DNA from: Nocardioides panacisoli
GTDB taxonomy: Bacteria > Actinomycetota > Actinomycetes > Propionibacteriales > Nocardioidaceae
Assembly: GCF_019448235.1 (NCBI RefSeq)
Contig: NZ_CP080409.1
Location: forward strand, 3,501,530-3,565,529
Length of the DNA stretch: 64,000 nt
Direction of reading: 5' to 3'
Made by a program: the position numbers and the translations under genes
The notes under the pieces: model-generated
Database searches by the model: none
Told to the model about the DNA's origin: nothing
What the model saw: the letters and a program-made list of their open reading frames with translations, nothing else
Shown here: piece after piece, positions 16,233 to 29,520 of the stretch
Numbering within the stretch: the first letter of the stretch is position 1
Layout of the letters: every line of letters begins with the position of its first letter

Positions 16233-16265
16233 GCCAACCGCTGGCCAACGAGGGTGATCTAGGGT
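16233..16265 (+). promoter_or_regulatory. coxD promoter with SARP-type direct repeats
   Basis: Heptamers GCCAACC (16233–16239) and GCCAACG (16244–16250) repeat with an 11-bp period. A -10 hexamer, TAGGGT (16260–16265), follows after 9 bases, and the ATG of coxD comes 7 bases later, so the message should be leaderless. There is no recognisable -35; the repeats occupy that position, as at activator-dependent promoters. The coxS promoter has the same layout. Confidence 0.65.
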
Positions 16266-16272
16266 CGAGAGC

Positions 16273-17148
16273 ATGGATGACCGGGTGGCCTCGCTCGCTG
16301 CACGCCTCGGTGAGACCGGCTACCTCGCTGACGAGGACCTGGCCACCGTGCTCCACCTCGCGCAGGTCATGGAGCGACCGTTGTTGCTGGAGGGGGAGCC
16401 CGGCACCGGCAAGACCGCGCTCGCCGAGGCGCTCGCCGCGGCGCTGGACCAGCCGCTGATCCGGCTGCAGTGCTACGAGGGCATCGACGCCACCCAGGCG
16501 CTCTACGACTGGGACTTCCCGCGGCAGATCCTGCACCTGCGGGCACTGGAGGCGACCGGTGGTGCGACGCCGGACCGGCTCGAGGAGGCGGAGAAGTCGC
16601 TCTACGACGAGCGGTTCCTGCTGGCCCGCCCGGTGCTGGCCGCGCTGCAGCGCAGCCCCGCGGTGCTGCTGGTCGACGAGATCGACCGCGCCGACGACGA
16701 GTTCGAGGCCTTCCTGCTCGAGGTCCTCTCCACCTACCAGGTCAGCATCCCCGAGCACGGCACGGTGACCGCGACGACCCCACCGACCGTCGTCCTCACC
16801 TCCAACCGCACCCGCGACCTGCACGACGCGCTCAAGCGCCGTTGCCTCTACCACTGGATCGACCACCCCGGGCTGGAGCGTGAGGTCGCGATCGTGCGGG
16901 CCCGGGCGCCCGAGGTGAGCGAGCAGCTCGCCCGCCAGGTCGCCGTACTCGTGCAGCGCCTGCGCGCGGAGGAGGGGCTGCAGAAGCCGCCAGGCGTCGC
17001 CGAGACGCTGGACTGGGCGCGGTCGTTGCAGTACCTCGGCGTCGCCGACCTCGACCTCGACGCGGCCGCCACCACCCTCGGCGCGCTGGTGAAGTACCGC
17101 GAGGACACCGAGCGGGTGCGGGCCGCGTTGGATCGGATGCTGGCATGA
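16273..17148 (+). CDS. coxD: CoxD-type MoxR AAA+ ATPase
   Basis: A 291-residue AAA+ protein of the MoxR class. Walker A is GEPGTGKT (residues 41–48) and Walker B VLLVDEIDRA (131–140), followed by sensor motif VLTSNRTRD. In carboxydotrophs CoxD acts with CoxE as a chaperone pair needed to mature the Cu/Mo active site of the CoxL enzyme. The next gene, a VWA protein, overlaps by four bases (ATGA), matching that partnership. The message is predicted to be leaderless from the TAGGGT box seven bases upstream. Confidence 0.9.
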   Translation: MDDRVASLAARLGETGYLADEDLATVLHLAQVMERPLLLEGEPGTGKTALAEALAAALDQPLIRLQCYEGIDATQALYDWDFPRQILHLRALEATGGATPDRLEEAEKSLYDERFLLARPVLAALQRSPAVLLVDEIDRADDEFEAFLLEVLSTYQVSIPEHGTVTATTPPTVVLTSNRTRDLHDALKRRCLYHWIDHPGLEREVAIVRARAPEVSEQLARQVAVLVQRLRAEEGLQKPPGVAETLDWARSLQYLGVADLDLDAAATTLGALVKYREDTERVRAALDRMLA

Positions 17149-18305
17149 GCGTCCGGGCCGAGGCCGACCACGGTGCCGACGAGGTGCTGCTCGGCTTCGC
17201 CCGCGCCCTGCGGTCCGCCGGTGTCGCGGTCACCCAGGACCGTTCGCAGGCCTTCCTCGCGGCGGCGGCCATCGCCGGAGCCGACGACCGCCGCGCCACC
17301 TACGCCGCGGGCCGCGCCACGCTGTGCGCCTCGCCGGACGACCTGGCCCGCTACGACCGGATCTTCGTCGCGTGGTTCGGTGGTGAGCCACTGCCCACCG
17401 GCCGGCGACCGGCGGCGAACCCCACGCCCGTGCAGGTCGACCTCGGCGAGGGCGAGGGCGGCGGCGAGGAGGACTCGGACGGCGACGTCGTGCCCGCCGC
17501 GGCCAGCGACACCGAGGTGCTCCGCCATCGCGACGTCGCGAGCATGTCGGCCGCCGAACGCCGCCACCTGGCCGCCCTGTTCTCCTCGCTCCGGCCCCGC
17601 ACCCCGACCCGGCCGACGGCGCGCCACGTCGCCTGGCACCGCGGGCGCATCGATGCGGCCCGCACGCTCCGGGCCAGCCTGCGCAACTTCGGCGAGCCGA
17701 CGACGGTGCGCTGGCGCCGCCGCGGCACCCGGTCACGCCGCGTCGTCCTCCTGGTCGACGTCTCCGGCTCGATGAGCGGGTACGCCGACGCCCTGCTGCG
17801 CCTGGCGCACCGGATGACGACGGCCTCGCGCTGCGGCCGGGGAGCGTCCCGGAGCGCGGACCGGCCCAGCGGGCACCGGGTGGAGACCTTCACCCTCGGC
17901 ACGCGGCTGACCCACCTCACCCGCGCGCTGCGAGCGCGCGACCCCGAGCGGGCGCTGGCCGCGGCGGGCGCGACGGTGCCCGACTGGTCCGGCGGCACCC
18001 GGCTCGGGGAGACCCTGGAGGCGTTCGTCGACCGGTGGGGACGACGGGGCATGGCCCGCGGCGCAGTCGTGGTGATCTTCAGTGACGGCTGGGAGCGCGG
18101 CGACCCCGCCCTGCTCGCCGAGCAGCTCGCCCGACTGCAGCGCCTCGCCCACCGCGTCATCTGGGTCAACCCGCACCGTGGCAAGCAGGGCTACGAGCCC
18201 GTCCAGGGCGGCGTCCGGGCGGCCCTGCCGCACCTGGATGCCTTCCTCGCCGGCCACTCGCTGGCGACCTATGCCGAGCTGATGGAGGTGGTCGGCGATG
18301 CGTGA
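17145..18305 (+). CDS. coxE: CoxE-type VWA domain protein
   Basis: A 386-residue protein with a C-terminal von Willebrand A domain. The MIDAS motif is DVSGSMS (Asp205, Ser207, Ser209); SGGTRLG gives the conserved Thr and FSDGWERGD the downstream Asp. The N-terminal half (helical; AADDRRATYAAGRATL-like region with DDLARYDRIF) is the family's CoxE/YeaD2-type domain. It binds metal and probably tethers substrate to the CoxD ATPase for maturation of the molybdenum hydroxylase. It overlaps coxD by four bases and the following gene by eight, so the three are translationally coupled. Confidence 0.9.
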   Translation: MSVRAEADHGADEVLLGFARALRSAGVAVTQDRSQAFLAAAAIAGADDRRATYAAGRATLCASPDDLARYDRIFVAWFGGEPLPTGRRPAANPTPVQVDLGEGEGGGEEDSDGDVVPAAASDTEVLRHRDVASMSAAERRHLAALFSSLRPRTPTRPTARHVAWHRGRIDAARTLRASLRNFGEPTTVRWRRRGTRSRRVVLLVDVSGSMSGYADALLRLAHRMTTASRCGRGASRSADRPSGHRVETFTLGTRLTHLTRALRARDPERALAAAGATVPDWSGGTRLGETLEAFVDRWGRRGMARGAVVVIFSDGWERGDPALLAEQLARLQRLAHRVIWVNPHRGKQGYEPVQGGVRAALPHLDAFLAGHSLATYAELMEVVGDA

Positions 18306-19443
18306 GGTGCTCTCCACGCTCCGTCCGTGGTGGGAGGCCGGCGAGACCGTCGGCATGGGCACGGTCGTCGCGACGTTCCGGTCCGCGCCGCGTCCCGCGG
18401 GCGCGTCGATGCTGGTCGGTCCCGACGGCTCCGCGGTCGGCTCGGTCTCCGGCGGGTGCGTCGAGGGGGCCGTCTACGAGCTCGGCCAGTCGGTGATGGC
18501 CAGCGGCACCCCGGTGCTGGAGCGGTACGGCGTCTCCGACGACGACGCCTTCGCCGTCGGCCTGACGTGCGGCGGGATCCTCGACGTCTTCGTGGAGCGC
18601 GTCAACCAGGAGACCTTCCCCGAGCTGGGCGAGGTCGCCGACGACATCGACGCCGGCCGGCCCGTCGCGGTCGTGACCGTCATCGACCACCCGGATGCGG
18701 CCTTCGTCGGTCGGCGGGCGCTGGTGCGGCCGGGGGAGGACCTGCAGGGCAGCCTGGGCAGCACCCGGATGGACGACGCGGTCCACGACGACGCACTCGG
18801 GCTGCTGGCCGCGGGCCACCACGGCACCCTGACCTACGGACCCGACGGCGAGCGTCGTGGCGAGGGGATGCGCGTCTTCGTGTGGGCCTTCGCGCCGGCG
18901 CCGCGCATGCTGGTCTTCGGGGCGATCGACTTCGCCGCTGCCGTGGCGCGGGTCGGTGACTTCCTCGGCTACCACGTGACGGTCTGCGACGCCCGACCGG
19001 TCTTCGCCACGACCACTCGCTTCCCCGGCGCGGACGAGGTGGTCGTCGACTGGCCGCACCGCTACCTCGAGCAGGAGGTCGCAGCCGGCCGGATCGACCG
19101 GCGTACGGTCATCACGGTCCTCACCCACGACCCGAAGTTCGACGTGCCCGTCCTGACCGAGGCGCTGCGGCTCCCCGAGGTCGCCTACGTCGGTGCCATG
19201 GGGTCGCGCCGCACCCACGAGGACCGGCTGGAGCGGCTGCGGGAGGCCGGCCTGACCGAGGCCGAGCTGACCCGGCTGCGCAGCCCCATCGGACTCGACC
19301 TCGGAGCGCGGACGCCCGAGGAGACGGCCGTCAGCATCGCGGCCGAGATCATCGCCGGGCAGTGGGGCGGCACGGGGGAGCCGCTGGCGGCCACCGAGGG
19401 CCGGATCCACCACTCCGAGGGCGGTCCGCACGACGCTCCCTGA
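18298..19443 (+). CDS. XdhC/CoxF-family molybdenum hydroxylase maturation factor
   Basis: A 381-residue XdhC/CoxI-family protein. The N-terminal domain has VGSVSGGCVEGAVYE and LTCGGILDVFVE with the conserved cysteines. The C-terminal Rossmann domain begins near PRMLVFGAIDF and includes VTVCDARPVFAT, THDPKFDVPVL and YVGAMGSRRTHEDR. Family members protect the molybdenum cofactor and insert it, often after sulfuration, into xanthine oxidase-type enzymes. Overlap with coxE shows one operon. The partner enzyme is very probably coxSLM six kilobases downstream. Confidence 0.9.
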   Translation: MREVLSTLRPWWEAGETVGMGTVVATFRSAPRPAGASMLVGPDGSAVGSVSGGCVEGAVYELGQSVMASGTPVLERYGVSDDDAFAVGLTCGGILDVFVERVNQETFPELGEVADDIDAGRPVAVVTVIDHPDAAFVGRRALVRPGEDLQGSLGSTRMDDAVHDDALGLLAAGHHGTLTYGPDGERRGEGMRVFVWAFAPAPRMLVFGAIDFAAAVARVGDFLGYHVTVCDARPVFATTTRFPGADEVVVDWPHRYLEQEVAAGRIDRRTVITVLTHDPKFDVPVLTEALRLPEVAYVGAMGSRRTHEDRLERLREAGLTEAELTRLRSPIGLDLGARTPEETAVSIAAEIIAGQWGGTGEPLAATEGRIHHSEGGPHDAP

Positions 19444-19619
19444 GCGCGAATCGGAATCGGATCGTTGTGTGCGTGTCGCCCGATTGCCCGCCCTCGCGGC
19501 GCGAACCGGCCTATCCTGCTGGATCTGGGGGGTGGCAACGAGGCTGCCCCGACGCCGGTGACGAGCAGTCCAGTCGCTGGTACCGAGTCCTCGGGGACGC
19601 AGCGAGCGAAGGAAGTCGA

Positions 19620-20567
19620 ATGCGAAATCGTGTGCAAACAGTTCTCGGCACGGGCGTGGCACTCGCCCTCGGCCTGACGCTGGCCGGATGCGGTGACGAC
19701 GGCGGGGGCGAGGCCTCCCCGGGCGGCGACGCGCTGTCCGGCGTGTCGGTGACGGTGGGGTCGAAGGACTTCACCGAGAACCAGATCCTGGGTGAGATGT
19801 ACGTCCAGGCGCTGGAGGCAGCGGGCGCGAACGTCACCAACCAGGTCGACCTCGGTGGCACCAACGTCAACCGCCAGGCCCTCGAGGCCGGGGAGATCGA
19901 CACCTACCCCGAGTACAACGGCACCGGCTGGACGGTCCACCTCGGCAACGACGACCCCAGCGACGACCCCACCGAGCTCTTCGAGGTCACCTCCGAGGCC
20001 GACCTGGAGCAGAACGACATCAAGTGGGTCGGCACCTCGCAGTTCAACAACACCTATGGCTTCGCGGCCAACGGTGACCTCGCCGAGGAGGAGGGTGGCT
20101 TCGACTTCGACTCGATGGCGGCCTACCTGAAGGCGAACCCGGACGCGACGGTCTGCATGGAGAGCGAGTTCCCCAACCGCCCCGACGGCCTGGTGCTGTT
20201 CGAGGACGCGACCGGCTACGAGCTGCCCCGCGGCCAGCAGCAGATCCTCGAGACCGGCCTGATCTACACCGAGACCTCCGACGGGGCCTGCGACTTCGGC
20301 GAGGTCTTCACCACCGACGGCCGGATCACCGCGCTCAACCTGGACCTGGTCGAGGACCCCGGCGTGATGATCATCTACAACGCGTCCTTCACGATGCGCA
20401 ACGAGGTCTACGAGGAGAACCCGGAGGCGTTCGACCAGATCGCCGAGACCATCTGGGACAACATCTCCCAGGAGAAGATGGCCGAGCTCAACGCGCAGGT
20501 CGACGTGGAGGGCATGCCCCGCGAGCGGGTGGCCGAGCAGTTCCTGGAGGACGTCGGCCTCCTCTGA
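19620..20567 (+). CDS. Osmoprotectant-type ABC transporter substrate-binding lipoprotein (OpuC/ProX-like)
   Basis: A 315-residue lipoprotein with lipobox LAGC (Cys24). The mature part begins VTVGSKDFTENQILGEMY, the hallmark of the OpuAC/ProX/OsmF family that binds glycine betaine, choline or related quaternary amines. EYNGTGW and NPDATVCMESEFPNRPDG follow, and IIYNASFTMRNE lies near the C-terminus. It should capture substrate outside the membrane for the permeases and ATPase encoded convergently downstream. AAGGAAG lies just before the ATG. The location inside a cox locus raises the possibility of a substrate other than betaine. Confidence 0.88.
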   Translation: MRNRVQTVLGTGVALALGLTLAGCGDDGGGEASPGGDALSGVSVTVGSKDFTENQILGEMYVQALEAAGANVTNQVDLGGTNVNRQALEAGEIDTYPEYNGTGWTVHLGNDDPSDDPTELFEVTSEADLEQNDIKWVGTSQFNNTYGFAANGDLAEEEGGFDFDSMAAYLKANPDATVCMESEFPNRPDGLVLFEDATGYELPRGQQQILETGLIYTETSDGACDFGEVFTTDGRITALNLDLVEDPGVMIIYNASFTMRNEVYEENPEAFDQIAETIWDNISQEKMAELNAQVDVEGMPRERVAEQFLEDVGLL

Positions 20568-20595
20568 GGCGCCCACGCCCCGCTCCACCAACAGC

Positions 20596-20628
20596 GACGC
20601 CGCCGGACGATCATCGTCCGGCGGCGTC
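20596..20628. terminator. Bidirectional terminator
   Basis: GACGCCGCCGGACG (20596–20609) and CGTCCGGCGGCGTC (20615–20628) form a perfect 14-bp stem with loop ATCAT, between convergent transporter genes. Confidence 0.88.
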
Positions 20629-20645
20629 GTCGTGTTCGGCGGCCC

Positions 20646-21488
20646 TCAGAGTCCGCGCGGGTGCAGGTAGCGCTCCGCGAGGGCGCCGATCCAGTCGAAG
20701 GTGATGGCCACGATCGCCACCAGCCATGCCACCGAGATCAGCGCCGCGTCCACGTTGAGCTGGATCGCCGCGTAGAGCGAGACGCCCAGACCGCTGCCAC
20801 CGATCAGGAAGGCCAGCGTGGCCATGCCGATGTTGATGGTCATCGCGGTGCGGATGCCGGTGAGGATCACCGGCACGGCGAGGGGCATCTCGATGCGCGC
20901 CAGCACGCCGGCGCGCGTCATCCCCATCCCGCGACCGGCCTCGATCACGCTGCGGTCGACGCTGTCGAGGCCGACCATGGTGTTGCGCAGCACCGGCAGC
21001 AGTGCGAAGAGTGCCAGCGCCCAGATCGCGGTGACCTTGCCCTGGCCCATGAAGGTCAGGAAGATGATCAGCAGGCCGTACGCCGGCAGCGCCTGCCCGG
21101 AGTTGGCGATGGTCAGGATCGCCGGGCTCACCCGTCGCAGCGCCGGCCGGGTGAGCAGGATCCCGAGGGGCACCGCCACCGCGATGACGATCAGCGTCGA
21201 CCAGGCCGCGATCTGCAGGTGGTCCAGCAGCTGGGGCTGCAGCGCGTCCTCCCAGTCCAGGATGCTCTGCAGCTGGATCTGGGCGTTGTCCAGGTCCAGG
21301 CTGCGCCGGTGGAGCAGCCACAGCCCGGTCAGCACGACGATGAAGACCGGTGCGATGAAGATGCCCTTGCCGGCGAACCGCGCCCCCAGGGCGCGCAGCC
21401 CGTGGAGCTGGTCGGTCGGGTCGGGGTCCGGGCCGTCGCTGTCCGGCGTGGCGGGCAGGCGTGCCCCGGCAGCGCTGACATCGATCAC
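20646..21488 (-). CDS. ABC transporter permease (OpuC/ProW type)
   Basis: A 280-residue inner membrane protein with an N-terminal cytoplasmic tail (about 40 residues) and six or more helices. The segment VIEAGRGMGMTRAGVLARIEMPLAVPVILTG contains the EAA loop that docks on the ATPase. IANSGQALPAYGLLIIF is typical of osmoprotectant permeases. It overlaps the ATPase gene by four bases and works with it, the second permease and the lipoprotein. Confidence 0.88.
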   Translation of the reverse strand: MIDVSAAGARLPATPDSDGPDPDPTDQLHGLRALGARFAGKGIFIAPVFIVVLTGLWLLHRRSLDLDNAQIQLQSILDWEDALQPQLLDHLQIAAWSTLIVIAVAVPLGILLTRPALRRVSPAILTIANSGQALPAYGLLIIFLTFMGQGKVTAIWALALFALLPVLRNTMVGLDSVDRSVIEAGRGMGMTRAGVLARIEMPLAVPVILTGIRTAMTINIGMATLAFLIGGSGLGVSLYAAIQLNVDAALISVAWLVAIVAITFDWIGALAERYLHPRGL

Positions 21489-22648
21489 GACTGCGCCTCC
21501 AGGTCCTCGTAGTGTCGCTGGGCCTCGTACTGCGCCCGCCGCACGGCCTTGGAGAGGTGAGCGATCTCGACCACGCCGGCGAACCGGCCCTGGTCGTCGA
21601 CGACGCAGGTGATGCTCGCCGCGCTCTGCACCATCACCTCCAGCGCCTGGTAGAGGGTGTCGTCGGATCGCAGGACGTCGCCCATCTCCTCACCGGCGCT
21701 CGACCAGCCCGAGGCCGGACCGTCCAGGTCGTCCTTGCGGAGCCACCGCACGGGGCGGTCCTGCTCGTCGGTCAGCACCAGCCACTCCCGGCTGCTGTCG
21801 GCCAGCTTGCGGGCGCCGGTCTCCGCGGAGTCCTGCACCGAGATGCTGGGGTACTCCGCGAGGCGTACCGAGTCGACCTTGAGGAAGTCCAGCCCCTTGA
21901 TCGTGGCGCCGGTGCCGATGAAGTCGTCGACGAAGTCGTCGATGGGGTAGGCGAGGATCCGCTCGGGGGTGTCGATCTGGCGGATCCGGCTCCGCTCGCC
22001 GAGGATGGCGATCCGGTCGCCCATCTTGATGGCCTCGTCGATGTCGTGGGTGACGAAGACGATGGTCTTGCGCAGGTCCTGCTGCACCCGCAGGAACTCG
22101 TTCTGCAGCCGGTTGCGCGTGATCGGGTCGATCGCACCGAACGGCTCGTCCATCAGCATGATGTCGGGGTCGGCGCCCAGGGCCCGCGCGACGCCGACCC
22201 GCTGGGCCTGGCCGCCGGAGAGCTCCTTCGGGTACCGGTTGCGGTACTGCTCGGGGTCGAGCCCGACCGTGGTCATCAGCCGCTCGACCTGCTCGGTCGT
22301 GCGCTGCTTGTCCCAGCCCAGCATCTTCGGGACGGTGGCGATGTTCTGCGCGATCGTCTGGTGGGGGAACAGGCCGATCTGCTGGATCACGTAGCCGATC
22401 CGGCGCCGCAGCTTGTCGGGGTTGACCTTGGTGACGTCCTCGCCGTCGAGGAGGATGCGCCCGCCGCTCGGCTCGATCATCCGGTTGATCAGCCGCAGGG
22501 TCGTCGACTTGCCGCAGCCCGACGGGCCCACCAGCACCAGGATCTCGCCCTCGGCGACGTCGAGGGTCAGTTCCTCCACTGCCGGGGCCTTGGTGCCGGG
22601 GTAGGTCTTGGTGACCCGGTCGAGGTGGATCTTGGGTTCGGAGCTCAT
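21485..22648 (-). CDS. ABC transporter ATPase with CBS domains (OpuCA/ProV type)
   Basis: A 387-residue ATPase. Walker A is GPSGCGKST (residues 41–49), the signature is LSGGQAQR (143–150; the family usually has LSGGQQQR), and Walker B is IMLMDEP (163–169). A C-terminal extension (about 265–375) forms a CBS pair, with repeats around VLTDEQDRPVRWL and CVVDDQGRFAGVV; in OpuA-type systems CBS domains sense ionic strength. It is the second gene of a minus-strand operon: permease, ATPase, permease. Confidence 0.92.
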   Translation of the reverse strand: MSSEPKIHLDRVTKTYPGTKAPAVEELTLDVAEGEILVLVGPSGCGKSTTLRLINRMIEPSGGRILLDGEDVTKVNPDKLRRRIGYVIQQIGLFPHQTIAQNIATVPKMLGWDKQRTTEQVERLMTTVGLDPEQYRNRYPKELSGGQAQRVGVARALGADPDIMLMDEPFGAIDPITRNRLQNEFLRVQQDLRKTIVFVTHDIDEAIKMGDRIAILGERSRIRQIDTPERILAYPIDDFVDDFIGTGATIKGLDFLKVDSVRLAEYPSISVQDSAETGARKLADSSREWLVLTDEQDRPVRWLRKDDLDGPASGWSSAGEEMGDVLRSDDTLYQALEVMVQSAASITCVVDDQGRFAGVVEIAHLSKAVRRAQYEAQRHYEDLEAQS

Positions 22649-22681
22649 GGGTTCCTCTCGGTCACTTCGATGGTCACGGGG

Positions 22682-23341
22682 TCACAGCTTCAGGCCGCGC
22701 GGGGTGGTGAATCGCTGGACGGTGGCGAGCACGATGTCCAGCACGAGCCCCAGCAACACGATGAAGATCGTTCCGGTCCACAGCTGGTTCTCCGAGTTGG
22801 GCAGGCCGAGGCGGCCCAGTGCGGTGTCGATGAAGGTGCCCAGTCCGTCGCCGCCGACCAGTGCCGCGATGGCCGCGATGCTCACCGCCAGCAGGGTCGA
22901 GACGCGGACGCCGGCCATGATCACCGGGTAGGCCAGCGGGAGCCGCACCCGCAGCAGCAGCTGGGTCCGGTTCATCCCCATGCCCTTCGCGGACTCCACG
23001 ACGGCCGGGCTGACCGCGTCCAACCCGGCCACGGTGTTGCGCAGGATCGGCAGCAGCGCGTAGAGGAACAGCGCGGCGATCGCGGCGGAGTTGCCGATCC
23101 CCACCAGCGGCACGAACAGCGCGAAGAGCGCCAGGGAGGGGATGGTGAGGAAGATGCCGACGATCGACTGCACGGGGGCGCGCAGCAACGGGCGGGGCTG
23201 GATGAAGACCCCCAGGAGCACCGCCACCACGGTGGCCGCGGCCACCGCGGTCAACGAGATCCGCGCGTGGTTGATCGTCTCCTCGAGGATGAAGTCGAAG
23301 TTGGTCTGTACGTAGGTGAGCCAGTCAGTGAGTACGTCCAC
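22682..23341 (-). CDS. ABC transporter permease (OpuC/ProW type)
   Basis: A 219-residue permease, first gene of the operon. It begins VDVLTDWLTYVQTNFDF and has five to six helices with the EAA loop VESAKGMGMNRTQLLLRVRLPLAYP. GTG at 23341 is chosen because AAAGG lies seven bases upstream and the family normally starts near this point; longer in-frame extensions run into the divergent regulator's upstream region. Separate small permeases are typical of OpuC-type systems. Confidence 0.87.
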   Translation of the reverse strand: MDVLTDWLTYVQTNFDFILEETINHARISLTAVAAATVVAVLLGVFIQPRPLLRAPVQSIVGIFLTIPSLALFALFVPLVGIGNSAAIAALFLYALLPILRNTVAGLDAVSPAVVESAKGMGMNRTQLLLRVRLPLAYPVIMAGVRVSTLLAVSIAAIAALVGGDGLGTFIDTALGRLGLPNSENQLWTGTIFIVLLGLVLDIVLATVQRFTTPRGLKL

Positions 23342-23474
23342 GGATGCCTTTCGGGTGGTTCCGAGTGTGTTCACCCTACGTAAGCCGTGCCCGGACCGCT
23401 CGCGGAGTCGCGGACTGGTGCCGGTTCGGGGGCCGAGTACGCTGAGTGTGATCGACCTCACTCTTGGAGGTGGC

Positions 23475-24710
23475 ATGACCGGCGAATCCGACCTTCGCGT
23501 GCGTCGACAGGCGGCCGCGCGCGCCTGGTCCTCGCACTTCGACCGCGTCGATCCCGTCGCTGCGACGGTCCGTCCCGAGATCCTGCACAGCTGGACCCGG
23601 TCCGAGCAGAGCGTGGCGGTGAACGTCGACGCCGCGCCGCTCGCCGACGAGGGGGAGACGGCGTCGTTCTTCCACGACTCGCCGCTCCAGGTCGGGGTCG
23701 AGCGCGTCGAGCAGGAGCTGCGGCGTACGGCCGAGGACGGCGACCTGGTCATCGGGGTCACCGACAACCAGACCCGGGTCCTGTGGACCTATGGCGGCCG
23801 GGTCATGCGCCGCCGCGCCGAGACCGTCAACTTCGTCCCCGGTGGCCGCTGGGACGACTCCTCGGTCGGCACCAACGCGCTGGACCTGGCCAACCGCCAC
23901 TCCTCGCCGGCGATGGTCTTCGGTGCCGAGCACTACGCGCCGATCGTGCACAACTGGGTCTGCTGGGCCGCGCCGGTCCACGACCCGGTGACGGGTGTGA
24001 AGCTCGGCGTGATCGACCTGTCGACCACCTGGGACCGCACCCACCCCATCGGGCTCGCCACCGCGCGCGTCCTCGCGACCCTCATCGAGGGGGCGATGCC
24101 GACCTCGGCACACGCACCCGCGGAGGAGACCGCCGACCCGGGCCTGGTCATGACGCTGCTCGGCACCGCCGAGGCGCGCCTGGACGGGCAGCGACTGCTG
24201 CTGAGCCGCCGGCAGACCGAGGTGCTGGCCCTGCTGTCACTGCACCCCGAGGGGCTCTCCCTGGAGCAGCTGCACGCCATGCTCTACGGCGACGCGGCGG
24301 TCACGTTCTCCACCCTCAAGGCCGAGGTGTCCCACCTGCGCCACAGCCTCGGCGGGGCGCTCGCGTCCCGCCCCTATCGGCTGATGCTCCCGGTCGCAAC
24401 CGACGTCGACCACGTGCTGGCGCTGCTGCGGCGCGGCCACGTCGCGGCGGCCGTGGACGCCTACGGCGGCGACCTGCTCCCCGGCACCAACAGTCCCGCC
24501 CTGGCCGAGATGGCCGAGTACGTCGCCGTCGCGGTCCGCGAGGCGCTGCTGGCCTCCCCGCACCCCGATGCCGTGCTGCGCTACAGCGAGCTCGCGCCGT
24601 ACGACGCCGAGGTCGTCGAGGTGTGCCTGGAGTCGCTGCGACCGGTCCAGGGGCGCCCCCACCCGGCCGCCGCCCTGCTGCGGGCACGGCTGGTCGTCGC
24701 GCGTGGGTGA
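23475..24710 (+). CDS. GAF-like sensor with SARP-like winged-helix domain: transcriptional regulator
   Basis: A 411-residue regulator. Residues about 1–215 resemble the N-terminal sensor of AcoR-like activators: EILHSWTRSE, LWTYGGRVMRRRAETVNF, SVGTNALDLA and KLGVIDLSTTWDRTHP are typical GAF-associated elements. The C-terminal part begins MTLLGTAEARLDGQ and continues with a winged helix (SRRQTEVLALLSLHPEGLS, EVSHLRHSLG, SRPYRLMLP), then a helical tail, the order seen in SARP activators. No AAA+ domain is present, so it should act with the main sigma factor. TTGGAGG precedes the ATG at 23475. It lies between the two halves of the cox locus, whose promoters carry SARP-like direct repeats, and is the obvious candidate activator. 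Confidence 0.82.
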   Translation: MTGESDLRVRRQAAARAWSSHFDRVDPVAATVRPEILHSWTRSEQSVAVNVDAAPLADEGETASFFHDSPLQVGVERVEQELRRTAEDGDLVIGVTDNQTRVLWTYGGRVMRRRAETVNFVPGGRWDDSSVGTNALDLANRHSSPAMVFGAEHYAPIVHNWVCWAAPVHDPVTGVKLGVIDLSTTWDRTHPIGLATARVLATLIEGAMPTSAHAPAEETADPGLVMTLLGTAEARLDGQRLLLSRRQTEVLALLSLHPEGLSLEQLHAMLYGDAAVTFSTLKAEVSHLRHSLGGALASRPYRLMLPVATDVDHVLALLRRGHVAAAVDAYGGDLLPGTNSPALAEMAEYVAVAVREALLASPHPDAVLRYSELAPYDAEVVEVCLESLRPVQGRPHPAAALLRARLVVARG

Positions 24711-24744
24711 GCTGGTCGCGAGGGACGCGCGGGTCCCTGCGTGA

Positions 24745-24909
24745 CTAGTGGTGCTGGCCCGAGGTGTGGGGCCAGTACTGCTTGGCCTCGCGTGGGCTCG
24801 GCGGCCCGTGCCGCTTGTCGATCGCGCCCTCGAGTGCGACCGCGATCAGGATGCCGGTCGTGAGGACGGCCGTGGCGATGAGCCAGATCAGGTATCCCAT
24901 CTCGGACAT
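24745..24909 (-). CDS. Small single-pass membrane protein
   Basis: A 54-residue protein: MSEMGYLIWLIATAVLTTG opens a single membrane helix (about 5–26), followed by a charged tail with PPSPREAKQYWPH and a His-rich end. AAGGAGG six bases before the ATG at 24909 is one of the best ribosome-binding sites in the window, which argues that this short gene is real. It lies between the regulator and coxS on the opposite strand. I do not recognise it. Confidence 0.65.
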   Translation of the reverse strand: MSEMGYLIWLIATAVLTTGILIAVALEGAIDKRHGPPSPREAKQYWPHTSGQHH

Positions 24910-25009
24910 GTGATCCCTCCTTCGGGGCATGTCGCCGGACCTCCAGCATAGGTCGATCGGGGCGGCGTGGACAGGGGTTCGCCCCGCGTTCACCGCCGTC
25001 GGGATCGGC

Positions 25010-25042
25010 GCCAACCATCTGCCAACCGGGCCTTCCTATCGT
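25010..25042 (+). promoter_or_regulatory. coxS promoter with SARP-type direct repeats
   Basis: GCCAACC (25010–25016) and GCCAACC (25021–25027) repeat with an 11-bp period. TATCGT (25037–25042), a -10 match, begins after 9 bases. The layout equals that of the coxD promoter: same heptamer, same period, same distance to -10. Transcription should start near 25049. Confidence 0.68.
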
Positions 25043-25051
25043 GATCGGGGT

Positions 25052-25066
25052 CACACGATGCGTGTG
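25052..25066. promoter_or_regulatory. Inverted repeat in the coxS leader
   Basis: CACACG-ATG-CGTGTG is a perfect 6-bp inverted repeat just after the predicted start point, inside the longer imperfect GGTCACACG/CGTGTGTCACC. It could be an operator. Confidence 0.35.
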
Positions 25067-25092: not shown

Positions 25093-25581
25093 ATGACTCG
25101 GATCAAGCTCACCGTCGACGGACAGCAGGTCGTCGACGACGTCGAACCCCGGATGCTGCTCGTGCAGTACCTCCGCGAGGTCCTCGGCAGGACCGGCACC
25201 GTCGTCGGGTGCGACACCAGCAACTGCGGGGCGTGCACCGTCCACCTCGACGGCCGCTCGGTGAAGTCGTGCAACGTGCTGGCCGTCCAGGCCGACGGCG
25301 CCGAGGTCACCACCGTCGAGGGCCTGGCCCAGGACGGGCAGCTCCACCCCGTCCAGGAGGCCTTCCGGGAGTGTCACGGGCTCCAGTGCGGCTTCTGCAC
25401 CCCGGGCATGATCATGCAGAGCATCGACCTGCTCCGGGACAACCCCGACCCCTCCGAGGAGGCGGTCCGCGAGGGCCTCGAGGGCAACCTGTGCCGCTGC
25501 ACCGGTTACCACAACATCGTGCGGGCCGTGCGCCACGCCGCCAAGAGCGGCGCGCAGACCAGCCAGGAGGTGCAGGCATGA
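25093..25581 (+). CDS. coxS: Molybdenum hydroxylase [2Fe-2S] small subunit (CoxS-type)
   Basis: A 162-residue iron-sulfur subunit that passes electrons from the Mo site to FAD. The plant-ferredoxin-type N-terminal cluster uses Cys40, Cys45, Cys48 and Cys60 ([10 protein letters not shown] and SVKSC). The C-terminal helical domain's cluster uses Cys99, Cys102, Cys134 and Cys136 (CGFCTPGM and LCRCTGYHN). GAGGGAG precedes the ATG. It overlaps coxL by four bases. Confidence 0.95.
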
Positions 25582-27983
25582 CCGCGACCCAGGAGCCCAC
25601 CAGCCCCGAGATCGGACGCGACCGGCGCCGCAAGGAGGACCAGCGCCTCATCACCGGTCGCACGCGGTGGACCGACAACATGAAGCTGCCCGGGATGCTG
25701 CACCTGGCCATGGTGCGCAGCCCCTTCGCCCACGCCACGATCACCGGCATCGACACCAGCGAGGCGAAGGCCGCCCCGAACGTGGTCTCGGTCCTCACCG
25801 GCGCCGACTTCGGCGAGGAGCTCGGCGCCTGCATCAACGCCTGGCCGATCACCCCGGACCAGGTCGCCCCGGTCCACAGCCCCATGCCCGCCGACCGCGT
25901 GTCCTTCGCCGGTGAGATCGTCGCCGTCGTCGCGGCCCGCTCGGCGGCCGAGGCGCGCGACGCCGCCGAGCTCGTCGACGTCGAGTACGACGAGCTGCCG
26001 GCCGTGGTCGACCTCAAGCAGGCCGAGCAGGACCAGGTCCTCGCCCACCCCGACCTCGGCACCAACAAGTCCGCGTACTGGGTCTTCGACTCCGCCGAGA
26101 TGGGCACCGGCGGCGACGTGAAGGAGGCCATCGAGACCGCCCGCACCGACGGGATCCTCATCGAGCGGGAGTACCGCCAGCAGCGCCTGATCCCGGCCTT
26201 CATGGAGCCCCGCAGCGTCGTGGTCGACCCCACCGGTGAGCAGCTCACCATGTGGTCGGCGACCCAGGTGCCCCACATCGTGCGTTTCGCGCTCGCGGCG
26301 ACCACCGGCGTACCGGAGTCCAAGATCCGCGTGATCGCCCCCGACGTGGGAGGTGGCTTCGGCGGCAAGCTGCAGACGACCCCCGAGGAGTGGATCGCCT
26401 GGGCCGTCGGACGACGCCTCGGCAAGCCGGTGAAGTACACCGAGACGCGCTCGGAGAGCCTGGTGGCCGCCCACCACGGTCGTGACCAGTGGCAGCGGCT
26501 CACGCTGGCCGCCACCAAGGACGGCACCGTCACCGGCCTCAACGTCGAGCTGCTGGCCAACCTCGGCTCGCACGTCGCCGTCGTCGGCGGCGGCGTCCCC
26601 GTCCTGGGTGCCTTCATGTTCAACGCGATCTACAAGTTCCCCGCCTACCGGTTCGGGTGCCAGACCGTCTTCACCAACACCGCCTGGACCGACGCCTACC
26701 GAGGTGCCGGCCGACCGGAGGCGACCTTCGCCATCGAGCGGCTGATGGACGAGCTCGCCCACGAGCTCGGTCGGGACCCGATCGAGGTGCGTGAGCAGAA
26801 CTGGATCAAGCACGAGGAGTTCCCCTTCACCACCGTCGCGGGGCTGGAGTACGACTCGGGCAACTACGAGGCGGCCACCGCGCGGGCCAAGGAGATGTTC
26901 GGCTACGACGAGCTCCGCGCAGAGCAGCAGCGGCGTCGGGAGTCCGGCGACAAGGTCCAGCTGGGCATCGGCGTCTCGACCTTCACCGAGATGTGCGGAC
27001 TGGCGCCCAGCCGGGTGCTCGGCTCGCTGGACTACGGGGCCGGCGGCTGGGAGAACGCCCAGGTCCGCATGCTCGCCACCGGCAAGGTCGAGGTGACCAC
27101 CGGTGCCAGCGCCCACGGCCAGGGCCACGAGACGGCGTTCAGCCAGATCGTGGCCGATCGGCTCGGGGTGCCGTTCGAGGACGTCGAGATCCTCCACGGC
27201 GACACCCAGGTGGCGCCGAAGGGCCTGGACACCTACGGCTCCCGCTCCTTGGTGGTCGGGGGAGAGGCACTGGTGCAGGCCACCGACAAGGTCGTCGCCA
27301 AGGCCAAGCGCGTGGCCGCCCACATGCTCGAGGCGTCCGAGGAGGACCTGGAGTTCACCGGCGGCCGCTTCGGCGTCCGCGGCACCGACCAGGGCGTGGC
27401 GATCCAGGAGATCGCGACCGCGGTCTTCGCCGCGCACGACCTGCCCGAGGGCATGGAGCCGTCGCTGGACGCCGACGCGACCTACGACCCGGTCAACTTC
27501 TCCTTCCCGCACGGCACCCACCTGTGCGCGATGGAGATCGACACCGAGACCGGGCGGGTGGACATCCGCAAGTACGTCTGCGTCGACGACATCGGCAACG
27601 TCATCAACCCGCTGATCGTCGCCGGCCAGGTCCACGGCGGCCTGGTCCAGGGCATCGCCCAGGCGCTGTGGGAGGAGGCGGTCTACGACGAGGGCGGCAC
27701 CCTGGTGTCGGGCTCGTTCGTCGACTACCTGCTGCCCACCGCGGCGGACACCGTCAACTTCGACATCGACCACACCACGACCCCGAGCACCACCAACTCG
27801 CTCGGCACCAAGGGCGTCGGCGAGGCCGGCACGATCGCCTCGACACCGGCCGTGGTCAACGCCGTCGTGGACGCGCTGCGACCGATGGGCGTGGACGACA
27901 TCACGATGCCGTGTACGCCGGACCGCGTCTGGCGAGCCATCACCGAGGCGCAGGCCTCGCGCACCCAGGAGGGACAGGCATGA
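25578..27983 (+). CDS. coxL: Molybdenum hydroxylase large subunit, form II CoxL
   Basis: An 801-residue catalytic subunit of the xanthine oxidase family, binding the Mo-pterin cofactor. GGGFGGK binds the cofactor, and GVGEAGT contains the catalytic Glu749. The active-site loop reads AYRGAGR (residues 373–379), the signature of form II CoxL. True CO dehydrogenase (form I) has AYxCSFR, whose Cys holds the Cu bridge; that Cys is absent here. Substrate is therefore open: an aldehyde, an N-heterocycle or another small compound, with CO less likely. The start overlaps coxS and the stop overlaps coxM, four bases each. Confidence 0.94.
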
Positions 27984-28837
27984 TCCCCGCAACCTTCGAC
28001 TACGTGGCACCCACCAGCCTCGACGAGGCCCTCTCGGCGCTGGCCGAGCACGGCGACGACGCCAAGATCATCGCCGGCGGCCAGAGCCTGCTGCCGATCC
28101 TGCGGATGCGGCTCAACGCACCCGAGTGGGTCATCGATCTGGGCCGCATCGACAGCCTGCGGGGGATCAGCGACGACGGGGACCACCTGGTCATCGGCGC
28201 GATGACGACCCACGACGCGGTCCTGCGGGACCCGCTGGTCCGGGAGCACGCCCAGGTGGTCAGCGAGGCCGTCTCGCACCTGGCCGACGCCCAGGTCCGC
28301 CACCGCGGGACCTTCGGCGGGGCGCTGGCCCACGCCGACCCGGCCGGGGACCTCGGCGCGCCGGCGCTCGCCCTGGGGGCGTCGTTCGTCATCGCCGGCC
28401 CGAACGGCACGCGCACCGTGCCGGCCTCGGAGTTCTTCGTCGACCTGTTCGAGAGTGCGGTCGGCGAGGACGAGATCCTCACCCAGGTCCACCTCCCCAA
28501 GCACACCGGCTGGGGTGCGCGCTACGAGAAGTTCGTGCGCGTGGTGCACCAGTGGCCCATCGTCGCGGTGGCCGCGACCGTCCGCACCGACGGCGACACC
28601 ATCGCCGAGGCGCGGGTCGGGCTGACCAACATGGGATCGACCCCGCTGCGCGCCACCGCGGTCGAGGAGGCACTGGCCGGCCAGCCCGCGACCGAGGACG
28701 CCGTGGCGGCAGCCGCCGCCCACGCCGCCGAGGGCACCCAGCCCCCGAGCGACCTGAACGGCGACGCCGACTACCGCCGGCACCTCGCCACCGTCCTCAC
28801 CCGTCGTGCGGTCCTCGCCGCTGCCGGAGTCGCCTGA
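27980..28837 (+). CDS. coxM: Molybdenum hydroxylase FAD subunit (CoxM-type)
   Basis: A 285-residue FAD-binding subunit that hands electrons to the external acceptor. AGGQSLLPIL (about residues 33–42) and the later TFGGALAHADPAGD are the two FAD pyrophosphate-binding motifs of the CoxM/xanthine dehydrogenase family. It completes the S-L-M trio, here in the order S, L, M rather than the M-S-L order of classical form I operons. It overlaps coxG by one base. Confidence 0.93.
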   Translation: MIPATFDYVAPTSLDEALSALAEHGDDAKIIAGGQSLLPILRMRLNAPEWVIDLGRIDSLRGISDDGDHLVIGAMTTHDAVLRDPLVREHAQVVSEAVSHLADAQVRHRGTFGGALAHADPAGDLGAPALALGASFVIAGPNGTRTVPASEFFVDLFESAVGEDEILTQVHLPKHTGWGARYEKFVRVVHQWPIVAVAATVRTDGDTIAEARVGLTNMGSTPLRATAVEEALAGQPATEDAVAAAAAHAAEGTQPPSDLNGDADYRRHLATVLTRRAVLAAAGVA

Positions 28838-29520
28838 TGGACCTGACCCACGAGTTCACCGTCCCGACGACGCCGGAGGAGACCTGGGAGCACTTCCAGG
28901 ACATCGCCGCCGTGGCCGAGTGCTTCCCCGGAGCACAGGTGAGCGAGACCGACGGCGAGACCTTCTCCGGCAGCTGCAAGGTCAAGCTGGGCCCGATCGC
29001 GCTGACCTACCAGGGGTCGGGCACCTTCGTGGAGCGCGACGAGGCCGCACGCCGCTTCGTCGTCGACGCCAAGGGCAAGGACAAGCGCGGCAACGGCACG
29101 GCGAACGCGCACGTCACCCTCACCATGGCCGACGCCCCGGAGGGCACGGCGGTGACGGTGGTCACCGAGCTGGCGATCACCGGCAAGCCGGCGCAGTTCG
29201 GTCGTGGTGTGATGCAGGACGTCTCGGACAAGTTGCTGGGGCAGTTCGTGACCTGCCTCGAGCAACGCCTGGACACGCCGGCCCCGGCGGCGCCGGGGCC
29301 GGCGTCACCAGCGGGGGAGGCCGCACCGGGATCGTCCGGGACGCCTCCCGCTGCCGCACCGGCCACCGCGTCGGCACCGGTGGATCCCCCCACCGCCGGT
29401 GCCGACGCGCTGGACCTGGGCGCCACCGCGCTGCCCGTGCTGTGGCGCGCCTACGGCAAGCAGGTGCTCGGCGCCCTCGCGGCGCTGGTCGTCCTGCGCT
29501 GGCTGCTGCGCCGCCGCTGA
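28837..29520 (+). CDS. coxG: CoxG-type SRPBCC protein with C-terminal membrane anchor
   Basis: A 227-residue protein. The SRPBCC fold (about 1–145: EFTVPTTPEETWEHFQD, FSGSCKVKLGPIALTYQGSG, GRGVMQDVSDKLLGQF) matches CoxG. A Pro/Ala-rich linker leads to one membrane helix near residues 208–222 and a terminal RWLLRRR. In carboxydotrophs CoxG recruits the enzyme to the inner face of the membrane so that electrons reach the respiratory chain. It is the last gene of the coxSLMG operon. Confidence 0.92.
   Translation: MDLTHEFTVPTTPEETWEHFQDIAAVAECFPGAQVSETDGETFSGSCKVKLGPIALTYQGSGTFVERDEAARRFVVDAKGKDKRGNGTANAHVTLTMADAPEGTAVTVVTELAITGKPAQFGRGVMQDVSDKLLGQFVTCLEQRLDTPAPAAPGPASPAGEAAPGSSGTPPAAAPATASAPVDPPTAGADALDLGATALPVLWRAYGKQVLGALAALVVLRWLLRRR

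Follow-up and report, generated by a model that had tools for sequence, protein, structure and literature searches.

In a 64,000-nucleotide stretch of the Nocardioides panacisoli genome (here called the window), two cox operons are each preceded by paired heptamers with an 11-bp period, and the GAF-SARP protein encoded between them at 23475-24710, P0001, is very probably a ligand-responsive activator that reads the pairs at both coxD and coxS. A first-pass annotation had proposed a dedicated coxD/coxS regulon under this regulator, and the sequence comparisons reported below support that reading. The enzyme itself belongs to a class whose role is unsettled. CoxL carries the form II motif AYRGAGR at residue 373 instead of the AYRCSFR of form I CO dehydrogenases; it falls under the CO-dehydrogenase cut-offs (656 bits against 991 for TIGR02416) and is form II. 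In the accessible part of one study, form II cox enzymes are described as often regulatory or accessory and not directly CO-oxidising (PMC12996764).

Paired heptamers and the regulator between the operons

Upstream of coxD, GCCAACC (16233-16239) is followed by GCTG, GCCAACG (16244-16250), nine bases and TAGGGT (16260-16265), with the ATG at 16273; upstream of coxS, GCCAACC (25010-25016) is followed by ATCT, a second GCCAACC (25021-25027), nine bases and TATCGT (25037-25042), with the ATG at 25093. On re-reading, both pairs had exactly the coordinates and spacings originally reported, and the regulator was likewise confirmed between the two operons, its start being taken as ATG 23475. Since the coxD -10 element lies just 7 nt before the ATG, the coxD mRNA is probably leaderless; in relatives, the distance from the -10 to the first ATG or GTG is 6-7 nt in 50 of 53 coxD promoters. 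All features are collected in Table 1.

Table 1. Features of the cox region, in positions of the window
Feature	Position	Strand	Basis or remark
Paired heptamer GCCAACC-N4-GCCAACG, coxD promoter	16233..16250	+	sequence read directly; putative regulator operator
coxD -10 element TAGGGT	16260..16265	+	7 nt before ATG
coxD, MoxR-type AAA ATPase (maturation)	16273..17148	+	AAA_5
coxE, VWA_CoxE	17145..18305	+	PF05762
xdhC/coxF-like	18298..19443	+	PF02625, PF13478
Regulator P0001, 411 aa	23475..24710	+	predicted DhaR-like GAF (about 53-216), SARP domain (216-411)
Paired heptamer GCCAACC-N4-GCCAACC, coxS promoter	25010..25027	+	sequence read directly; putative regulator operator
coxS -10 element TATCGT	25037..25042	+	sequence read directly
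GTGA-N6-TCAC inverted repeat, CRP-like	25041..25054	+	overlaps -10 end of coxS
coxS, 2Fe-2S subunit	25093..25581	+	PF01799, PF00111
coxL, molybdenum subunit, form II motif AYRGAGR	25578..27983	+	motif, profile score
coxM, FAD subunit	27980..28837	+	PF00941, PF03450
coxG	28837..29520	+	PF06240

When up to two mismatches were allowed, the 64-kb window gave 7 matches where 3.2 were expected, and 6 of 100 shuffles reached 7; at this tolerance the pattern is unremarkable. With no mismatch, only the coxD and coxS sites were retrieved. Across the whole 3.57-Mb genome, GCCAACSNNNNGCCAACS gave 2 exact matches (reversed-pattern control, 0), as did CCAAC-N6-CCAAC-N(10-11)-TANNNT, at coxD and coxS only (control, 0); the exact scan returned no third site.

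Structure prediction was required for P0001, as Pfam found no domain at E 1e-3 and, at relaxed E, only Trans_reg_C below its cut-off. Precomputed labels in the protein database (PF26965, with PF01590 and PF27103 in addition for exaC-type homologues) did not come up in our Pfam scan of P0001. In the predicted model, residues 216-411 align with the SARP domain of AfsR and with EmbR over the whole domain, an OmpR-type winged helix followed by the BTA part, and the recognition helix comprises residues 278-291, including K282 and H287. The GAF part is modeled with only moderate confidence, and its fold matches include IclR-type regulators. On this model, P0001 is a DhaR-like GAF region fused to an AfsR/EmbR-type SARP domain.

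Many IclR-type regulators are repressors, and the match of the GAF half to this type would suit a protein that binds the repeats as a repressor and is released by its ligand. We consider repression improbable, because the 3' repeat lies 9-10 nt before the -10, near the position used by SARP activators, and because the fold match spans the entire SARP domain including the BTA part, which in AfsR contacts sigma and the beta flap (PMC10936776, available in part). The same source states as the SARP operator rule that the direct repeats have a period of 11 or 22 bp and that 8 bp separate the 3' repeat from the -10; the putative operators described here share the 11-bp period and, at 9-10 nt to TANNNT, stand one or two above that rule.

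Conservation across Nocardioides

Whole-genome pattern counts spanned 196 genomes of the genus Nocardioides (by source names), and promoters were compared in 61 loci, namely the window and 60 loci picked from the list of regulator orthologues, one each from 60 of the 196 genomes. These promoters were scanned for a CCAAC pair with an 11-bp period lying 9-10 nt before TANNNT, with 1 mismatch in 10 allowed and the coxD stretch extended 45 nt into the predicted gene. Rows with identity below 50% or an alignment start past residue 20 were dropped (coxD of L098, L118 and L143), and genes missing from a stretch were left out of the counts (coxS in L100, L123, L126, L127, L129 and L132; coxD in L107).

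Relatives keep the paired heptamer at both homologues: with at most one mismatch it precedes coxS in 55/55 loci (45 of them exact) and coxD in 53/57 (50 exact), the exceptions being L109, L111, L115 and L121, and shuffles gave 0. Exact pairs at period 11 occur in 45/55 coxS and 50/57 coxD upstream stretches, while any other listed period gave at most 2. No pair was found upstream of the regulator gene (60 loci), mobA (52), coxE (59), xdhC (59), coxL (51) or coxM (55). The exact motif is absent from the retrieved stretch in 2 of 57 Nocardioides-type loci, and the L357 promoter, judged by eye, retains one half of the pair only. The nine-base gap to the -10 proposed as part of the signature holds for the two promoters of this genome; in relatives the gap is 9 or 10. 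The promoters are otherwise diverged, as the 30 nt preceding the pair average only 0.19-0.24 bits per position in pair-anchored alignments; the CCAAC cores reach 1.6-2.0 bits per position, partly an effect of that anchoring.

Genome-wide, the CCAAC-pair pattern was found in 161 of the 196 genomes, mostly in 1-2 copies each, and the reversed pattern gave 7 matches in total. Presence of the motif and of a regulator orthologue (threshold E 1e-100) was hand-compiled from the two respective tables and then tested: the motif occurs in 155/158 genomes with an orthologue versus 6/38 without one. The first-pass annotation had made its proposal depend on the repeats persisting wherever relatives keep the regulator, and in nearly all of them they do. 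The six genomes with an exact motif and no detected orthologue are G121, G031, G025, G168, G184 and G195. A contig ends 0.75 kb from the coxS promoter in G121 and 32 nt from coxS in G031, where the motif stands before coxD, so that the regulator may be unassembled in these two; the single site of G025 lies away from cox.

Seven genomes with extra or lone sites were examined among the matches listed (L349-L355). In three of them (L350, L352 and L353), the site precedes an AMP-binding CoA ligase-like gene, as judged by product start, with Pfam run on L352 only.

Relatives beside exaC and residue 287

Outside Nocardioides, relatives of the regulator mostly flank exaC (acetaldehyde dehydrogenase), with a promoter layout as at cox. 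A first scan beside distant homologues gave exact CCAAC pairs in 4 of 20 loci, the GCAAC variant being visible only with mismatches allowed. Requiring TANNNT loses most exaC pairs, as the exaC -10 is often CACAGT-like: CCAAC pairs were found in 2/17 cases with this requirement and in 17/17 without it.

For regulators with His or Tyr at position 287 of the recognition helix (H/Y287), a CCAAC pair precedes exaC in 21/21 loci (17 exact, 4 with one mismatch); for those with Arg (R287), a GCAAC pair does so in 11/11 (L201 with one mismatch). Mixed pairs occur in L342 and L269, the latter a one-mismatch H/Y287 case that fits both versions equally and entered the test as CCAAC. The exaC start of L316 was extrapolated from an alignment that began at residue 163. 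In L185, L187, L189, L199 and L307, the regulator is present and no pair-bearing exaC or cox promoter was identified (L185 and L189 have a pair elsewhere). In the reverse test, 30 loci were chosen by the GCAAC pattern alone; 18 had a family helix within 1.5 kb, with R287 in 18/18, and 12 had none. N. panacisoli itself has a single GCAAC site, before exaC and adjoining an R287 paralogue. Across these loci, the heptamer letter is thus associated with the regulator's recognition helix and not with the target gene.

Taxon alone does not account for this link, since Streptomyces members occur in both sets, by name in the H/Y287 set and in the R287 set through L191, whose regulator has the same sequence as a protein of Streptomyces fructofermentans. 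K282 was also considered as the specificity residue and dropped, because the Amycolatopsis regulators of L321 and L329 have R282 yet H287 and retain CCAAC, which points to residue 287. In our own alignment (S-x-x-R register), residue 287 corresponds to AfsR R92 and residue 282 to AfsR R87, given in the accessible part of PMC10936776 as a base-contacting residue and a phosphate contact, respectively; an error of one position is possible in matching the AfsR-contacted base to the C/G position. In the tree, H/Y287 and R287 regulators form two clades, so that, Amycolatopsis apart, the link comes down essentially to a single ancient split. The cox regulators cluster with those of Knoellia/Janibacter (exaC-linked in L280 and L318; support 100/99), and an aldehyde-dehydrogenase activator was therefore probably recruited to cox.

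Many winged-helix regulators bind direct repeats of about 11 bp, and the heptamers could be read by another such factor (an OmpR/PhoP-type response regulator or a different SARP) while the GAF-SARP protein acts elsewhere. This is quite unlikely, given that the heptamer letter tracks the GAF-SARP recognition helix at the common target exaC and that the motif is mostly lost along with the regulator orthologue.

The coxS palindrome, proposed mechanism and known systems

The GTGA-N6-TCAC palindrome is exact in 39/55 coxS promoters and present within one mismatch in 53/55; in coxD promoters the corresponding counts are 0/53 and 5/53, the latter against 0.77 in simple letter shuffles. GTG-N6-GNCAC occurs in 28/55 coxS promoters (shuffles, 0.37). 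Operator consensus sequences are given, in the portion of PMC10033298 available, as GTG(N)6GNCAC for Streptomyces Crp and GTG(N)8CAC for GlxR, and the window site GTGATCGGGGTCAC matches both. Three HTH_Crp_2 matches lie above cut-off in this genome, though each of the 14 control genomes also contains some. In R287-type exaC promoters the palindrome is exact in only 2/11, and several streptomycete exaC promoters carry it at an offset identical to that in coxS. A second factor acting at coxS would probably come from the CRP family. That this palindrome is the real coxS switch and the heptamers merely a basal promoter element would fit its frequency at coxS and the HTH_Crp_2 matches; we regard it as very unlikely, because coxD retains the heptamers without an exact palindrome and the heptamers co-vary with the regulator. 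The compared cox loci are all related, but the nearly unconserved flanks, the zero counts in shuffles and control genes and the 7 reversed matches across 196 genomes leave a negligible chance that the repeats are functionless inherited sequence or coincidence.

From these comparisons we infer binding, activation, a causal role for residue 287 and an evolutionary direction. The DhaR-like N-terminal GAF domain, under ligand control, would govern the C-terminal SARP domain; two protomers, paired on the DNA as in AfsR, would occupy the adjacent heptamers where a -35 element would otherwise stand, and the bound regulator would hold RNA polymerase at the coxD and coxS -10 elements, turning maturation and structural genes on together. 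Residue 287 would set the second heptamer base, His/Tyr calling for C and Arg for G. In a family found mostly beside exaC, the cox-linked branch would have kept the CCAAC operator and gained two new target promoters, with a probable CRP-family protein at GTGA-N6-TCAC as an additional input at coxS. More speculatively, and as a whole less likely than not, an exaC activator may have been captured by Nocardioidaceae form II cox operons along with a promoter module made up of the heptamer pair, the -10 and, at coxS, GTGA-N6-TCAC; the form II enzyme would then be under the control of an alcohol or organic carbonyl, its substrate would probably be of the aldehyde class and not CO, and residue 287 would be a natural CCAAC/GCAAC switch separating two paralogous regulons per cell.

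Our searches of open-licence literature brought up no account of form II cox enzymes being regulated by a GAF-SARP protein, nor any paper that joins SARP and GAF domains with an aldehyde or CO dehydrogenase. If the proposal is true, this transcription factor has a defined two-site regulon, its GAF inducer should hint at the enzyme substrate, and SARP-type control is placed beyond antibiotic biosynthesis. With a constant target gene and a base that varies along with the helix, the exaC-side paralogues would offer a natural library from which to decipher a SARP recognition code.

EmbR has a C-terminal FHA domain. Compared with this Mycobacterium tuberculosis protein (2ff4, 2fez), P0001 has a GAF sensor instead. 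AfsR, the large SARP of the Streptomyces coelicolor afsS promoter (8hvr, 8k60), has the N-terminal SARP domain by which SARPs are recognized, followed by NOD/TPR, whereas in P0001 the GAF region is N-terminal and the SARP domain C-terminal; AfsR serves antibiotic regulation with 8 nt to the -10, and the P0001 family has exaC/cox neighbours and 9-10 nt. DhaR/AcoR-type activators (4lrz) share the N-terminal DhaR-type GAF region with P0001, in which the Pfam scan (weak Trans_reg_C alone) detected no sigma-54 AAA+ or Fis-type helix, the C-terminal half being SARP instead. PimR-type SARP-LAL operators, according to the accessible part of PMC5930380, are heptameric direct repeats with 4-nt spacers and the consensus CGGCAAG, which resembles the heptamer, GCAACG, that goes with R287 regulators; the PimR-type proteins are large LAL proteins of polyene clusters, unlike P0001. 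Finally, CutR (Mycobacterium sp. JC1) and CoxC (Afipia carboxidovorans) regulate cut/cox genes (PMC12609908 and PMC11347149, each available in part); as LysR-type and MHYT-domain proteins, they belong to families unrelated to P0001, and their enzymes are CO dehydrogenases, whereas the CoxL described here is form II.

The paired heptamer at the cox promoters

The promoter sequences that the first-pass annotation had described upstream of coxD and coxS were read directly in the window as given. At two or fewer mismatches, GCCAACSNNNNGCCAACS matches seven times in the window (3.2 expected); exact matches lie only at these two promoters, and across the whole 3,565,529-base genome there are again only two, both at cox promoters (reversed control, 0). 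A version including the -10 element, CCAAC-N6-CCAAC-N(10-11)-TANNNT, retrieves the same two places from the genome (reversed control, 0). Since 6 to 7 nt separate the -10 from the first ATG or GTG in 50 of 53 coxD promoters, the coxD transcript is probably leaderless.

Among 196 Nocardioides genomes (genus according to the source names of the records), the regulator query matched an orthologue or paralogue in 184 and the coxS query matched in 186. Loci were compared in the window and in 60 fetched stretches, each no longer than 20 kb; their commonest gene order is mobA-coxD-coxE-xdhC-regulator-coxS-coxL-coxM. Counting query genes only, the regulator is placed between xdhC and coxS in 50/61 loci; coxS is out of reach of the stretch in 6, and one stretch (L107) holds coxS without the regulator. 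The scan of relatives proposed in the first-pass annotation, with one mismatch in ten tolerated, found the pair followed at 9 to 10 nt by TANNNT before 55/55 coxS and 53/57 coxD genes (shuffles, 0), and before none of the regulator (60), mobA (52), coxE (59), xdhC (59), coxL (51), or coxM (55) genes. CCAAC pairs have a period of 11 in 45/55 coxS and 50/57 coxD promoters, with every other listed period occurring at most twice. In promoters anchored on the pair, the preceding 30 nt are nearly unconserved (0.19 to 0.24 bits on average); the CCAAC cores reach 1.6 to 2.0 bits, partly due to this anchoring.

The exact pattern occurs in 161/196 genomes (reversed pattern, 7 hits), and regulator orthologue and motif go together: with orthologues defined by an E value of at most 1e-100, the motif is present in 155 of 158 genomes with an orthologue versus 6 of 38 without. 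Of the genomes with an orthologue and no exact motif, G006 and G156 have a one-mismatch pair at coxS (L111; L357, by eye), and in G179 coxS is located at a contig end. The motif without an orthologue occurs in G121 and G031, where coxS is close to a contig end; in G025, as a single site away from cox; and in G168, G184, and G195.

Several further features were observed (see table). In 3/61 loci (the window, L121, and L148), a cassette for an ABC transporter of the glycine-betaine/OpuB type, encoding an ATPase, two permeases, and a binding protein, is found within the cox locus. Its position relative to the regulator differs among the three; in the window, it masks the usual adjacency of regulator and xdhC. 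In G031, the motif site precedes coxD and consists of three consecutive heptamers at 11-bp steps. An exact paired heptamer with a -10 also precedes an AMP-binding CoA ligase-like gene (Pfam run on L352 only) in three genomes, in one of which (L353) GTGA-N6-TCAC immediately follows that -10.

Locations of features in the window, the regulator, and related stretches
Feature	Location	Detail
coxD site (-10 to first ATG/GTG)	window 16260-16273	
ABC transporter cassette	window 19620-23341	
Regulator (P0001)	window 23475-24710 (+)	411 aa
GAF pattern in P0001	residues 152-163	E152, H153, W161, C163
Three consecutive heptamers before coxD	G031:C62:1476-1504	L031/L035
Paired heptamer before CoA ligase-like gene	L350:4721; L352:4585; L353:4864	
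GCAACG-like repeats before exaC	L201, near 8337 (-)	11-bp steps; three half-sites vs two
Further GAF paralogue, own genome	G000:C1:1231852 (L204)	helix RAEISRMR

Recognition helix and heptamer version

Outside Nocardioides, relatives of the regulator mostly flank exaC, the acetaldehyde dehydrogenase gene, which is present in 15/20 stretches of the distant-homologue set (two being own-genome paralogues) and in 17/23 named non-Nocardioides loci; two of the latter (L283 and L338) have cox. Of nine neighboring open reading frames scanned, seven are ExaC (NF050026, above cut-off); the other two, chosen by position, are not. The exaC promoters are laid out like those of cox and come with either of two heptamers, NCCAACC or NGCAACG; a third half-site was seen in L201. 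The 20-kb stretch around the further GAF paralogue yielded neither exaC nor a paired heptamer.

On these sequences, the heptamer version tracks the recognition helix of the regulator. Regulators with H287 (Y in L190; typically KAExSHLR) have a CCAAC pair before exaC in 21/21 loci, four with one mismatch and L269 mixed, and those with R287 (RAE[LIM]xRLR) have a GCAAC pair in 11/11. In the reverse direction, 30 loci were chosen by the GCAAC pattern alone; a family helix lies no more than 1.5 kb away in 18, R287 in every case, and the other 12 show none at that range. Both versions coexist in the window's own genome, where cox accounts for two CCAAC sites and a single GCAAC site lies at exaC, next to the R287 paralogue. 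Because exaC neighbors both helix classes, the signal is a property of the regulator, not of the gene.

In the tree, R287 regulators form one clade (100/100) and the others another, so the link as read from sequence amounts to a single deep contrast, supplemented by the Amycolatopsis case. There, two regulators (L321 and L329) combine R282 with H287, and their genes are immediately followed by a CCAAC pair, which in L321 precedes a DUF779 gene; L342 has the same helix and a mixed pair. As R282/H287 goes with CCAAC here, residue 282 is disfavored and 287 is left as the candidate for heptamer specificity. For the AfsR complex, base contacts are reported for R92 and T88 and phosphate contacts for R87, R94, and K95 (PMC10936776). 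When lined up on the S-x-x-R signature in our own alignment, AfsR R92 would correspond to 287 and R87 to 282, and a profile alignment places EmbR in the same register; the AfsR-contacted base may sit one position off the C/G position.

Separately, all 54 family GAF regions examined, from both helix classes, contain the pattern [EQ]H-x(5-8)-[WH]-x-C, a possible ligand or metal site.

CoxL type and a CRP-like palindrome at coxS

The CoxL motif AYRGAGR is that of form II. CoxL earns the name of neither CO dehydrogenase nor glyceraldehyde dehydrogenase, since it scores below both cut-offs (656 bits versus 991 and 663 versus 790, respectively); its nearest solved structure is a CoxL (8uem).

The palindrome GTGA-N6-TCAC is exact in 39/55 coxS promoters (shuffles, 0.02) and present with at most one mismatch in 53/55 (shuffles, 0.66); for coxD, the counts are 0/53 and 5/53. 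It matches published Crp/GlxR consensus sequences (PMC10033298). Of the 39 exact coxS sites, 33 have base 5 of the -10 as their first position, and the other 6 lie 11 to 12 nt, roughly a helical turn, downstream of that. Exact palindromes also precede exaC in 8/17 H287-type loci, seven at the matching offset, and in 2/11 R287-type loci. Of the two cox promoters, only coxS would receive an extra CRP-like input, and because the site covers the -10 and the start, its placement suggests repression, e.g., catabolite repression.

Origin and proposed mode of action

Cox regulators group with those of Knoellia and Janibacter (100/99). Among these, L280 and L318 are linked to exaC; exaC is absent from the stretch of L307 (Janibacter). 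Read most simply, this grouping means that cox probably recruited an activator of exaC, which retained its operator, although the direction of recruitment is our inference, as the tree is unrooted.

The observation made in the first-pass annotation was right, and its interpretation of shared control stands up well at the sequence level. To this, the present analysis adds the family-wide helix-heptamer link, the likely takeover of an exaC regulator by form II cox, and a putative CRP-like input specific to coxS. The proposed mode of action is modeled on AfsR: ligand binding by the GAF domain would enable two protomers to occupy the heptamers, from which they would recruit polymerase to both cox promoters. 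In AfsR, two protomers lie adjacent on two 11-bp repeats and offer a docking surface for sigma region 4 that replaces the -35 element (PMC10936776).
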